A program made the translations under genes and the position numbers. Positions 3,652-12,347 of a stretch of 12,347 nucleotides of DNA are shown piece after piece. Location: NCBI GenBank assembly GCA_902766185.1, contig CACXCQ010000200.1:1-12347 (forward strand), written 5' to 3'. The stretch comes from an uncultured Eubacteriales bacterium. Lineage in GTDB: Bacteria > Bacillota > Clostridia > Peptostreptococcales > Anaerovoracaceae. Position 1 is the first letter of the stretch. Every line of letters starts with the position of its first letter. A model generated the notes under the pieces. It made no database searches. It was not told the origin of the DNA and saw only the letters and a program-made list of their open reading frames with translations.

Positions 3652-4764
3652 ATGCTTCAGAAACTGTTCAAGTTAGTGTTCACGGTCCTGGGCATGATGC
3701 TGGGATACGGTGCGTATCAGCTGACCGCCTACATCGCGGCCGGAAGAGGCTATGATCTGAGTGAACGGCTCTCCGTCGCGGAGAACCTGTTCGTCACTCT
3801 CGTTTTCGCAATTATTTTTGGATTAATATTCTACAAGCTGACGCCGGCGCTGACCAGGCAGGGGCGCAAGGCCGCCGTGAACCTGGAATCGGACCTGAAA
3901 AAGACCTCCACCAACGACATCATCATCACCGGAGGCGGTCTTATCTCGGGTCTGGTCGTGGCTTATCTTCTGACCGGGCTCTATGAGGGGATCAACATTC
4001 CGGTGCTGCAGGTGGTGCTGAACATCATCACGTACCTGATCCTGGGCTCACTGGGCGTTTTCGTGGCCACAAGCCGCGGAAGGGATCTCAGAGAAGCCTT
4101 GATGGCTGCCAGGCGGGGCACATCCGCGGGCAAGACCGGCAGGCACAAGGAAGGAGAGTCCGTGCCGAAGATATTCGACACCAGCGTCATCATCGACGGC
4201 AGGATCTCGGACATCATGAAGACGGGCTTTCTGGAAGGCCCCATCATCATTCCGGAGTTCGTGCTGGTGGAGCTGCAGCACGTGGCGGATTCCTCGGATT
4301 CCCTGAAGAGGAACCGGGGCCGGCGGGGACTGGATATACTGAACCGGATCCAGACGGATTACGGCGTGGAGATCTACAACACCACGGCGGACAAATCCCT
4401 GGAGGAGATCCCGGAGGTGGACGTCAAGCTGCTGAAGCTGGCCCAGAACATCGGCGGGAAGGTCGTGACCAACGACTTCAACCTGAACAAGGTGGCTGCC
4501 ATCAAAGGCGTTCCGGTGCTGAATATCAACGAGCTGGCCAATACGCTTAAGCCGGTGGTGCTGCCGGGAGAGGAGATGATCCTGTCCCTGGTGAAGGAAG
4601 GCAAGGAACGGAATCAGGCGGTTGCCTATCTGGACGACGGAACCATGATCGTCGTGGAGGATGGCCGCCGGTTCATCGGCCAGACCATCAAAGTGACGGT
4701 GACGAGTGTGCTCCAGACCACAGCGGGCCGAATGATCTTCGCCAAGCCGTCGGGAGACAAGTAA
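3652..4764 (+). CDS. Membrane-anchored PIN/TRAM-domain protein (YacL-like)
   Basis: This 370-residue protein resembles Bacillus YacL. The N-terminal third carries four hydrophobic segments (about 8-30, 45-63, 90-110, 118-140). A basic linker follows (about 141-170), then a PIN nuclease-fold domain (172-295) with candidate metal-binding acids D176 (IFDTSVIIDGR), E207 (VLVELQH), D257 and D275 (VTNDFNLNK). A C-terminal TRAM domain (about 299-362) resembles RNA-binding beta-barrels. The set of acids suggests an active endoribonuclease held at the membrane, but no substrate is established from this sequence. The ATG at 3652 has AAAGGAGGTG about 9 bases upstream. It follows the CarD gene by 116 bases with no clear terminator between, and precedes ispDF by 22 bases, so cotranscription is likely. 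Confidence 0.92.
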   Translation: MLQKLFKLVFTVLGMMLGYGAYQLTAYIAAGRGYDLSERLSVAENLFVTLVFAIIFGLIFYKLTPALTRQGRKAAVNLESDLKKTSTNDIIITGGGLISGLVVAYLLTGLYEGINIPVLQVVLNIITYLILGSLGVFVATSRGRDLREALMAARRGTSAGKTGRHKEGESVPKIFDTSVIIDGRISDIMKTGFLEGPIIIPEFVLVELQHVADSSDSLKRNRGRRGLDILNRIQTDYGVEIYNTTADKSLEEIPEVDVKLLKLAQNIGGKVVTNDFNLNKVAAIKGVPVLNINELANTLKPVVLPGEEMILSLVKEGKERNQAVAYLDDGTMIVVEDGRRFIGQTIKVTVTSVLQTTAGRMIFAKPSGDK

Positions 4765-9948: not shown

Positions 9949-9984
9949 ACCCGGTGCAAGAATATTTGCACCGGGTTTTGATTT
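9949..9984 (+). terminator. Intrinsic terminator after the cyclophilin gene
   Basis: A perfect 11-bp stem (9949-9959 with 9966-9976), a 6-base loop (9960-9965) and the tail TTTTGATTT make a strong Rho-independent terminator 21 bases after the cyclophilin stop. It closes the plus-strand block. Its right arm doubles as the -35 element of the next promoter. Confidence 0.9.
9956..9969. promoter_or_regulatory. UAS-like palindrome over the activator's own -35 (candidate autoregulatory site)
   Basis: GCAAGAATATTTGC matches the downstream activator palindrome GCAAATATATTTGC at 12 of 14 positions. It sits in the terminator hairpin and overlaps the -35 hexamer (9966-9971) of the activator gene. If the activator binds here it would block its own transcription. 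The dyad is partly required by the terminator stem, so chance is possible. Confidence 0.4.
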
Positions 9985-9994
9985 GTGGTAAAAT
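9966..9994 (+). promoter_or_regulatory. Sigma-70/A-type promoter of the sigma-54 activator gene
   Basis: TTGCAC (9966-9971) and TAAAAT (9989-9994) are separated by exactly 17 bases, and TGG directly before TAAAAT adds an extended -10. Expected transcription start is near 10001, about 40 bases before the chosen ATG. The -35 lies within the right arm of the preceding terminator. Confidence 0.75.
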
Positions 9995-10040: not shown

Positions 10041-11495
10041 ATGCGGGGCAAGGACTATATGGCCGTGCTGCGGGCGGTCACGGAGGTCATGGGCGAGGCC
10101 ATCCACATCGTGGACGCCTCCGGAAGAACGATCTTATATAATGAAGCGATGGCGCAGCTGGAGAAGATCTCCGTGGAGGATGCTTTGGGCAAACCTTTCC
10201 GGAAGGTGTTTTCCAACATCCCGGAGTCGGAGAGCACGCTGTATCAGGCGCTGGTGAACCGCAGGGAGATCCGGAACAAGCAGCAGACCTATATGAACAT
10301 CTACGGCAAGCAGATCACCACCATCAACACCACGATCCCCATCATCGTGGACGACCGGGTGGTGGCGGCCATGGAGGTGGCCAGGGACATCACGGAGCTC
10401 AAGGACATGAGCGACCGGATCATGTCCCTGCAGGACAGCATTTCCGCCAAAAGCAGGAAAGCCGGCGGGGAAACGGAGACCGGCAGCGCGCAGCAGGAGC
10501 AGGCCGGAGAGGACGCCCAGCCTGTCCCGGGGATCCGCCAGTATCACTTCACGGACATCATCGGCGAGGATCCGAATTTCCTGCAGGCGGTGGATCGGGC
10601 AATGAGAGCCACGTCCAACACGGCTCCGGTGTTCATTTACGGGGAGACCGGAACCGGCAAGGAGCTCATCGCCCAGAGCATCCATTACGGGGGCAAGCGG
10701 CACAAGAAGCCCTTCCTGGCCCAGAACTGCGCGGCTATTCCGGAGAGCCTGCTTGAAGGGATCCTCTTCGGTACCGAAAAAGGCGGATTCACCGGCGCGG
10801 TCGACCGGGCGGGATTGTTCGAGCAGGCCCATGGCGGGACCCTGCTGCTGGATGAGATCAGCGCCATGCCTTACGAGCTGCAGAGCAAGCTACTCCGGGT
10901 GCTGCAGGAAAAATACATCCGCCGGGTAGGCGGGAGCAAGGACATTCTGGTGGACGTGCGCATCATCGCCACGGTGAACGAGCCTCCCCAGGAGCTGATC
11001 CAGCGGGGGGCCCTGCGGCCTGACCTCTACTACCGGCTGAACGTCATCGGCGTCGATCTGCCGCCGCTCCGGGAGCGAAAAGGAGATATTCCCATTCTGG
11101 CGGACCGGTTCATCCGCAAATATAATGAAGAATACGGCCGGGAGATCTGGATGATCGCCGAGCCTGCTCTGGAAAAGCTCAAGAACTACGATTATCCGGG
11201 AAATGTCCGGGAGCTGGAGAACATCATCATGTCAGCGGTGTCGCTGGCGGAGGATGAACACGTGCTGACGGACCGGGACATCAGCATCCGGCCCACCTAC
11301 CGGGAAGGGGACCCCGCCATCAGCGAATTCAGCCCGGAGGAGGAGTCTCTGGCGGAGTATCTGTCCCGCATCGAGCAGACGGTGATCCGGCAGTACCTGG
11401 CCGGCAACGGGGGAAATGTTACCCGGACCGCCCGGGAGCTGGGCATGATCCGTCAGAATCTTCAGCATAAGCTGAAAAAATATGAATTGGTATGA
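10041..11495 (+). CDS. Sigma-54-dependent transcriptional activator (PAS, AAA+, Fis-type HTH)
   Basis: This 484-residue enhancer-binding protein activates sigma-54 RNA polymerase by ATP hydrolysis. A PAS sensor domain (about 10-120; IHIVDASGRTILYNEAM) is joined by a Glu/Gln/Gly-rich linker (about 135-165) to an AAA+ domain (about 170-405). That domain has Walker A GETGTGKE (201-208), the sigma-54 contact loop GGFTGA (248-253, usually GAFTGA), Walker B LLLDEI (268-273), RPDLYYRLNVIGVDLPPLRER (326-346) and YPGNVRELENII (385-396). The Fis-type helix-turn-helix is at about 440-484 (GNVTRTARELGMIRQNLQHKLKKY). It looks like the RocR class that controls amino-acid catabolism. I chose the ATG at 10041, with GAGAGGA upstream and after the predicted transcription start; the in-frame ATG at 9936 would precede the promoter. 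The sigma-54 promoter just downstream is its probable target. The inducer is unknown; an amino acid such as ornithine is an inference. Confidence 0.94.
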   Translation: MRGKDYMAVLRAVTEVMGEAIHIVDASGRTILYNEAMAQLEKISVEDALGKPFRKVFSNIPESESTLYQALVNRREIRNKQQTYMNIYGKQITTINTTIPIIVDDRVVAAMEVARDITELKDMSDRIMSLQDSISAKSRKAGGETETGSAQQEQAGEDAQPVPGIRQYHFTDIIGEDPNFLQAVDRAMRATSNTAPVFIYGETGTGKELIAQSIHYGGKRHKKPFLAQNCAAIPESLLEGILFGTEKGGFTGAVDRAGLFEQAHGGTLLLDEISAMPYELQSKLLRVLQEKYIRRVGGSKDILVDVRIIATVNEPPQELIQRGALRPDLYYRLNVIGVDLPPLRERKGDIPILADRFIRKYNEEYGREIWMIAEPALEKLKNYDYPGNVRELENIIMSAVSLAEDEHVLTDRDISIRPTYREGDPAISEFSPEEESLAEYLSRIEQTVIRQYLAGNGGNVTRTARELGMIRQNLQHKLKKYELV

Positions 11496-11510
11496 ATAAT
11501 ATTCACAAAG

Positions 11511-11524
11511 GCAAATATATTTGC
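11511..11524. promoter_or_regulatory. Activator-binding palindrome, copy 1 (upstream activating sequence)
   Basis: GCAAATATATTTGC is a perfect 14-bp palindrome centred about 155 bases before the predicted sigma-54 transcription start. An identical copy begins 22 bases downstream, so both would face the same side of the helix, as expected for cooperative binding of activator dimers. The overlapping palindrome TTTGCGCAAA (11520-11529) adds further GCAAA half-sites between them. Confidence 0.75.
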
Positions 11525-11532
11525 GCAAAATA

Positions 11533-11546
11533 GCAAATATATTTGC
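11533..11546. promoter_or_regulatory. Activator-binding palindrome, copy 2 (upstream activating sequence)
   Basis: This is an identical second copy of the 14-bp palindrome, centred about 133 bases before the predicted start, a normal distance for a sigma-54 enhancer. It lies 37 bases after the activator gene's stop codon. Confidence 0.75.
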
Positions 11547-11592
11547 GGTATGTTGGTAAAACGCCCTGTTTTTATCGGGCACAGAATGAGGA

Positions 11593-11629
11593 CGCAAAGG
11601 CTGGAAACGTTGAAATTCCAGCCTTTGCG
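11593..11629. terminator. Perfect 14-bp-stem hairpin, possible terminator of the activator gene
   Basis: Arms 11593-11606 and 11616-11629 pair without mismatch around a 9-base loop. The bases after it (ATTGTTTGG) are only weakly T-rich, so termination is plausible but not sure. It lies exactly between the activator palindromes and the -24/-12 promoter, and its arms also contain GCAAA/TTTGC. It could instead shape the DNA loop or bind a protein. Confidence 0.5.
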
Positions 11630-11646
11630 CATTGTTTGGTGGATGT

Positions 11647-11662
11647 TGGCACGGGAATTGCT
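11647..11662 (+). promoter_or_regulatory. Sigma-54 (-24/-12) promoter
   Basis: TGGCAC, five bases, TTGCT is a full match to the sigma-54 consensus. GG (11648-11649) and GC (11660-11661) are separated by the required 10 bases. Transcription would start near 11673, leaving a leader of about 57 bases with AAAGGAG before the ATG at 11730. Together with the upstream activator gene and palindromes this is a strong call. Confidence 0.9.
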
Positions 11663-11729
11663 TCATATTAGGAGCGTAAATAAGTTATGGCAAATCTTTA
11701 TTGAATAACCAAAAGAAAAGGAGATTAAC

Positions 11730-12347
11730 ATGGAAAACGTAAAAGTAATCATCTGGGGTCTTGGTGCAATGGGCGGCGGCGTTGCCGATATGCTGCTGAG
11801 CAAGGAAGGCGTTGACATCGTTGGTGTTGCCGGAAGAGAACACAAGCAGGGTCATTCGATGTATGAGTACATCAAGACCGAGAAGGGCGACAGAGAAGAT
11901 GTCCTCATCGCTGCTCCGGAAGAAATCATCAAGCCGGGTGCTGCTGATATCGTCATCCTGTGCACAGACTCCTTCACAAAGGAAGCTTTCCCGAGAATGA
12001 AGTTCATCCTGGAGCAGGGCATCAACTGCATCACCTCCGCTGAGGAGATGGCTTATCCCGCAGCACAGAGCCCCGAGCTGGCAGCTGAGCTGGACAAGAT
12101 CGCTAAGGAAAACGGCGTCTCCATCCTGGGCACCGGCATCAACCCGGGTCACATCATGGACATGCTGGTCCTCGTAATGACCGGCTGCATGACCGATGTT
12201 AAGCACATCCTGTCCAGAAGAGTCAACTCCCTGTCCCCCTTCGGACCGGTTGTTATGCACGAGCAGGGCATCGGCGTTTCCGTCGAAGAGTTCAACGAAA
12301 GAAAAGCTAACGGCACCATGTCCGGTCACGTTGGTTTCGCAGAGTCC
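11730..12347 (+). CDS. ord: Probable 2,4-diaminopentanoate dehydrogenase, 5' part (runs off right edge)
   Basis: 206 residues are visible, open to the window end; full-length relatives have roughly 340-350. The N-terminus is a Rossmann NAD(P)-binding fold: VKVIIWGLGAMGGGVADMLL (GLGAMG at 10-15), then ADIVILCTDS and GINCITSAEEMAYP. The later segments ILGTGINPGHIMDMLVLVMTG and ILSRRVNSLSPFGPVVMHEQGIGVSVEEFN resemble the clostridial Ord enzyme, which oxidatively deaminates 2,4-diaminopentanoate to 2-amino-4-oxopentanoate in ornithine fermentation. A related dihydrodipicolinate-reductase-like dehydrogenase remains possible. AAAGGAG precedes the ATG. It is the first gene after the sigma-54 promoter; in known clusters ortA, ortB and the ornithine aminomutase genes follow. 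Codon choice (GGT, GCT, GTT, AGA) differs from neighbours and suggests high expression. Confidence 0.82.
   Translation, partial: MENVKVIIWGLGAMGGGVADMLLSKEGVDIVGVAGREHKQGHSMYEYIKTEKGDREDVLIAAPEEIIKPGAADIVILCTDSFTKEAFPRMKFILEQGINCITSAEEMAYPAAQSPELAAELDKIAKENGVSILGTGINPGHIMDMLVLVMTGCMTDVKHILSRRVNSLSPFGPVVMHEQGIGVSVEEFNERKANGTMSGHVGFAES

Follow-up and report, generated by a model that had tools for sequence, protein, structure and literature searches.

The stretch of DNA analysed here, referred to as the window (12,347 nucleotides, from a gut bacterium), quite probably carries a circuit in which the presumably ornithine-sensing activator OrdR would activate the ornithine degradation gene ord from a pair of palindromes and would repress its own gene, ordR, at a third palindrome. 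Sequence comparison established which sites are present and how they are spaced, their link to ordR and ord, the geometry of the promoter, and how uniform the codons involved are.

The ordR–ord region of the window

The activator gene ordR (10041–11495, forward strand; 484 amino acids) was defined by open reading frame calling, domain search and conservation. According to the ORF list the frame is intact, with its ATG at 10041 and its stop codon ending at 11495. The domains PAS_4, PAS_9, Sigma54_activat, AAA lid and HTH_8 each score above their Pfam cut-offs, in agreement with an earlier note on this DNA that had described an intact PAS/AAA+/HTH activator gene. With 205.6 bits for PF00158 and 39.9 bits for PF02954, the Fis-type HTH, OrdR has the characteristics of a sigma-54 enhancer-binding protein, and the best PDB matches of its predicted AlphaFold model (mean pLDDT 81) are sigma-54 activators, e.g. 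1ojl and NtrC1. The loop motif of bacterial sigma-54 enhancer-binding proteins is GAFTGA. Residues 248–253 of the window's OrdR, forming the sigma-54 contact loop, read GGFTGA instead; 63 activator ORFs (window included) showed GGFTGA in 51 cases, GSFTGA in 5 and GAFTGA in 5, the loop not being found in 2.

The best-scoring NCBIfam model for OrdR is that of PrdR (NF041552); its 345.2 bits do not reach the equivalog cut-off of 795. Within the PAS domain the polar residues S65, Q82, Y84, N86, N96 and E112 are invariant in 37 aligned sequences, which makes them candidates for ornithine binding. A search for PDB sequence relatives of this domain returned none that was convincing. The rpoN gene, which the earlier note had wanted confirmed in the genome, is present on another contig (G000:C269) as a 524-aa open frame (Sigma54_DBD, 215 bits).

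Downstream of ordR, motif scan and conservation define a distal (11511–11524) and a proximal (11533–11546) predicted OrdR upstream activating site. Both are exact copies of GCAAATATATTTGC and start 22 bp apart, just as previously described. At up to two mismatches, GCAAATATATTTGC occurs three times in the window compared with an expectation of 0.01 per shuffled window, and the class GCAAAWWWWTTTGC is confined to the two sites at 11511 and 11533 in the entire 1.94-Mb assembly. The proposed consensus −24/−12 promoter, TGGCACGGGAATTGCT at 11647–11662 on the forward strand, matches the pattern without mismatch and is conserved. With up to two mismatches the pattern was found twice in the window where 4.6 matches are expected, i.e. 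not above chance. Because the loose pattern alone is no rarer than chance, the weight of this call comes from its exactness, position and conservation.

A hairpin with a 14-bp stem (11593–11629, forward strand) lies between the activating sites and the promoter. It has no T-run and is single-copy in the window's genome. The hairpin was discarded as a general part of the circuit, as a similar one occurs in only the window and three close relatives (L034, L035, L044) out of the 61 loci with pair and promoter that were compared. No Rfam match was obtained in the window at gathering scores.

The gene following the promoter, ord (11730–12347, forward strand), was recognised by its NCBIfam match to 2,4-diaminopentanoate dehydrogenase (292.9 bits, positions 1–203 of 335), which substantiates the diaminopentanoate dehydrogenase-like gene of the earlier note. 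The score is under the 400-bit cut-off for the full-length protein; the contig, and with it the window, stops at 12347 and truncates the gene. Behind ord, the relative L035 has ortA, ortB, a small ORF, oraE and the Or-4 gene, the small ORF at the place of oraS being without an NCBIfam match. Searching the window's assembly (1.94 Mb, 83% complete) with the relative's DNA for the rest of the ornithine operon recovered only the ord fragment. In the window ordR adjoins the ornithine operon through ord at 11730, and ord is preceded by a sigma-54 promoter with upstream sites, as expected of OrdR.

Conservation of the palindrome pair and further targets

Sampling from named genomes gave 80 ord loci, kept out of 158, and sampling from related genomes, 44 of 61 of which had a match, gave 30. 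The comparison comprised 110 loci with ord, the window included and two further copies of it left out. One locus, L063, was excluded (ord start off the contig), 92 loci were left after removal of duplicates, and 87 of these had at least 450 nt upstream of ord. A relaxed site was defined by arms GCAA/TTGC and six central A/T with at most one departure, and a pair by starts 20–24 bp apart; this definition was fixed only after the strict matches had been inspected.

An activator gene adjoins ord in 62 loci; of these, 57 have both the pair and a sigma-54 site, four have a sigma-54 site without the pair and one has neither. Conservation of the palindrome near orthologous activators, a check proposed by the earlier note, was thereby borne out. 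The 25 loci without an adjacent activator gave neither element in 20 cases, both in four and a sigma-54 site only in one. Wherever pair and promoter occur together (61 loci) the pair starts are 21–23 bp apart, the outer GC on either side of the palindromes is invariant, and the proximal palindrome begins 63–205 nt before the sigma-54 promoter. Outside the 500-nt stretch ahead of ord no palindrome pair was found in 1.13 Mb of the same loci. Control of ord by a sigma-54 circuit, as the earlier note had claimed, is well supported by this recurrence of pair and promoter together with the activator.

Pair and promoter occur despite the lack of a neighbouring activator gene in four loci, L048, L050, L056 and L111. 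In the genome of L050 a full-length OrdR homologue of 62% identity (L146) is encoded on another contig, and the pair is still present at ord. A position of the L146 gene just past the end of L050 was considered and rejected: on one contig the coordinates of the two stretches would overlap, the stretches share no overlap, and hence they belong to different contigs. In L111 an OrdR homologue is found about 3.9 kb away on the opposite strand, and in L056 the contig ends 587 nt upstream of ord. L074 and L080 have ordR divergent from ord, the sites being kept as three palindromes in the common intergenic region.

A number of ord loci (L058, L059, L067–L069, L083, L086–L090, L092, L095, L096, L105 and L113) are without an activator match in the sampled stretch, without the palindrome and without the sigma-54 site. 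By their record titles they belong to Oscillospiraceae, Ruminococcaceae and other Clostridia. Ornithine degradation may be regulated differently there.

The exact pair is present in 82 of 297 genomes of the order, and a reversed control pattern gave zero in the listed genomes. From the matches listed, 50 pair loci were examined, representing 49 distinct places (one place in G233 was sampled twice) and overlapping partly with the genomes of the first set of activator loci (see below). Among these listed matches, 45 of the 49 pairs are situated at most 700 nt upstream of ord. Two of the exceptions, L143 and L173, have the pair at a contig end adjoining the activator gene, and a third, L159, has a pair without ord and without a sigma-54 site. 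In the fourth (L158, 1644–1855, genome G297) the pair precedes a basic amino-acid antiporter gene, with a −24/−12 element, TGGCATAAAAGTTGCG, between pair and gene and a third palindrome close by. The antiporter scores 504 bits with TIGR00905, over the cut-off, and 518.8 bits with the arginine-ornithine antiporter model (cut-off 591). This gene represents a second apparent OrdR target in one relative and, as a member of the arginine/ornithine antiporter family, it supports the ornithine-related role of the circuit.

In the window's genome there are five other sites within one mismatch of GCAAWWWWWWTTGC; the reversed control pattern gives three. They were considered as further targets and rejected: one on contig C294 is inside an ORF that resembles cysteine synthase by eye, one at 3808 of the window is inside the ORF 3652–4764, and no sigma-54 site was found in the four loci outside the window. 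The circuit had been called self-contained, and for the window's 83%-complete assembly this stands; it does not extend to the relative with the antiporter as second apparent target. The probable OrdR binding motif is now defined across many genomes as GCAAAWWWWTTTGC in two copies 21–23 bp apart.

The third palindrome at ordR

The earlier count of two palindromes was incomplete, a third one at 9956–9969 having been overlooked. This predicted ordR auto-operator, GCAAGAATATTTGC, found by motif scan, is two mismatches away from exact GCAAATATATTTGC. It forms the core of a terminator-like hairpin after the cyclophilin gene (9949–9976, forward strand; 12-bp stem, 4-nt loop, T-rich tail) and is overlapped by the −35 element of a predicted sigma-A promoter of ordR (9965–9994, forward strand), composed of TTTGCA at 9965–9970, an 18-nt spacer and TAAAAT at 9989–9994 with TG ahead of it.

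A first set of 63 activator loci was inspected, 14 of which were skipped (start too near the locus end or not covered by the match). In 45 of the remaining 49, window included, a site is present at most 300 nt upstream of ordR. Elsewhere in the same loci such sites number 12 per 1.11 Mb, and some of these are third sites inside the gene. The best −10-like hexamer starts 19–20 nt after the third site in 33 of the 45 loci and 7 nt after it in five, and its score is at least 5 in 39 of 45 loci, whereas 500 shuffles gave 10.2 on average and 19 at most. From this spacing to the predicted −10 it follows that in 38 of 45 loci the third site covers the −35 region or the spacer beside the −10.

Of a second set, made up of 20 loci (18 belonging to families of the order other than that of the window), 17 were usable. 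The upstream site was present in only three of these, two being from the window's own family, and many have a palindrome inside the ordR reading frame. Pooling gave 183 loci. Excluded from these were 45 for want of a good activator match, 19 whose ordR start was not covered, four whose start lay off the locus, and 15 duplicates. There remained 100 distinct ordR genes, 92 with at least 150 nt upstream. In these 92 the site is upstream only in 52, in the gene only in 27, in both places in two and in neither in 11, the last group including the unlinked ordR of L146. Four ordR genes with neither placement (L185, L192, L193, L203) have, close to the ord pair, one or two extra palindromes 1.2–1.6 kb downstream of the ordR start. 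Alignment served to assign the ordR start codons, and the start so assigned in L198 and in L209 lies on the palindrome itself.

The in-gene site is mostly found at nt 29 or 32 (zero-based), where it encodes Q-[K/N]-I-L. Codon usage was analysed in 33 representatives (<85% identity) chosen only for their lack of an upstream site. At the in-gene site 23 of 30 Leu are TTG, against 55% uniformity for the runner-up among the 25 Leu columns; 24 of 29 Ile are ATT (runner-up among 22 columns, 64%) and 23 of 24 Gln are CAA (runner-up among 10, 73%). The three codons are thus the most uniform among the 10 (Gln), 22 (Ile) and 25 (Leu) conserved columns, it being understood that codon columns of related ordR genes are not independent. 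At the same positions, 39 representatives with an upstream site use TTG for 1/9 Leu, CAA for 3/9 Gln and ATT for 3/4 Ile. A tree of 80 ordR genes, calculated with the first 20 residues omitted, shows four placement switches and 3–5 independent pairs. Because the placements are phylogenetically clustered, with only this number of independent pairs, the exclusivity of upstream and in-gene sites is not significant by itself.

We infer binding by OrdR, the sign of its autoregulation and ornithine as the ligand. OrdR would be made from the sigma-A promoter and sense ornithine through its PAS domain. On the palindromes at 11511–11546 it would contact sigma-54 RNA polymerase at 11647–11662, upon which transcription of ord would start, together with that of ortA-ortB-(oraS)-oraE and an accessory gene as judged by comparison with a relative. 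OrdR would also bind the third palindrome at its own gene and block ordR transcription, in the lineage of the window by covering the ordR promoter and in other lineages by standing as a roadblock near the beginning of the ordR frame. Occupation of the third site is expected to lower ordR transcription since the site covers the sigma-A promoter or the early part of the gene, and since the loci scanned revealed no sigma-54 promoter ahead of ordR. A third site at ordR would probably make the circuit self-limiting. Counting against this model, the pair or the promoter is missing from five of the 62 ord loci that have an activator next to them, and 11 of the 92 ordR genes have neither an upstream nor an in-gene site.

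The third palindrome shares its motif with the pair, and its in-gene version, being part of the reading frame, could not act simply by covering a promoter. Both features would also suit an activating or bridging site, with OrdR on the ord pair also holding the ordR site about 1.5 kb off, or activating its own sigma-A promoter. We consider this unlikely, given the missing sigma-54 promoter in the scanned loci and the overlap of the upstream site with the −35 region or spacer, as placed by the predicted −10, which is a location typical of repression. It is far less probable that the palindrome at 9956–9969 is a mere terminator hairpin of the cyclophilin gene resembling the motif by chance: in the window the site does form the core of a strong hairpin, with a T-rich stretch behind it, but a site recurs upstream of ordR in 45 of 49 loci, and a hairpin context (at least five extra pairs plus a T-rich tail) accompanies it in only seven of 45, on which ground a terminator context was also rejected as a rule for the third site. 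That the pair belongs to another regulator and the activator works elsewhere is the least credible reading, as the pair co-occurs with an adjacent activator, pair and promoter are both absent from 20 of the 25 loci without one, and the divergently arranged L074 and L080 keep the sites.

We lean towards OrdR being a dual regulator with conserved negative self-control. Its single auto-operator would have moved between the sigma-A promoter and the ordR frame, where synonymous codons would be held to keep the palindrome, and the stretch in the window would combine operator, terminator core and −35 overlap, perhaps three functions. In the predicted in-gene operator a regulatory site seems to constrain synonymous codons, a case provided by nature; the relocation of the operator lets two ways of reaching the same control be compared.

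The probable inducer and comparison with known systems

The earlier note proposed that the activator senses ornithine or a product. In mice, C. difficile expressed ornithine pathway genes more highly when the animals ate standard chow than when their diet was free of ornithine, and deletion of oraSE raised orr, ord and ortB in mice, both as reported in the sections of PMC8803604 consulted. Because the oraSE mutant cannot carry ornithine past the aminomutase, its raised ord argues for ornithine itself rather than a downstream product as the likelier signal, so that the first half of that proposal is favoured over the second; ornithine would then be the OrdR ligand, acting via the PAS domain. 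The same source describes oxidative ornithine fermentation as helping C. difficile to colonise the gut. The present analysis narrows the probable inducer to ornithine and proposes, in addition, a self-limiting loop of the circuit that can be tested.

The type of circuit is already described. It is the OrdR–ord system of Clostridiales, predicted in 2019 (Nie et al. 2019; PMC6615313) with OrdR as one of 39 groups, and is also listed for C. difficile (PMC7438776). Going by title, no other paper among those listed by a literature search deals with this regulator. The earlier interpretation of a sigma-54 circuit at ord was largely right, but does not concern a new system. As given in the parts of PMC6615313 consulted, the published system has the same Fis-type HTH activator beside ord-ort-ora, a sigma-54 promoter and upstream sites, and the authors set the OrdR motif apart from the common TGT-N10-12-ACA type, to which the published motif of PrdR, the proline reductase activator, belongs. 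Unlike the circuit proposed here, Table 1 of that paper gives the ord operon alone for OrdR. No mention of OrdR autoregulation was found in its main text; supplementary Table S3 may list ordR sites.

In C. difficile the activator CD0441/OrdR is likewise adjacent to ord, upstream of which a transcription start with a −24/−12 promoter has been mapped; this system differs in that no third site was found mentioned in the sections of PMC7438776 consulted. In the same sections, hadA and ord carry an identical promoter sequence in their rows of Table 4, possibly a copying slip. Under the conditions of that study, qRT-PCR showed no regulation of ord by SigL, which counts against the model; for most such genes the authors suggest that the inducer is absent in TY.

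In the literature examined no earlier description was found of a third operator at ordR or of the OrdR autorepression predicted from it, and a search for autogenous control of PspF gave nothing of use. Autorepression by this class of activator is called well-established in the sections of PMC10274813 consulted and was shown for NtrC of Caulobacter, which binds and represses its own operon as is predicted for OrdR. The two differ in that NtrC is a two-component regulator, whereas OrdR is a PAS activator whose self-site is located at the promoter or in the gene, depending on the lineage.
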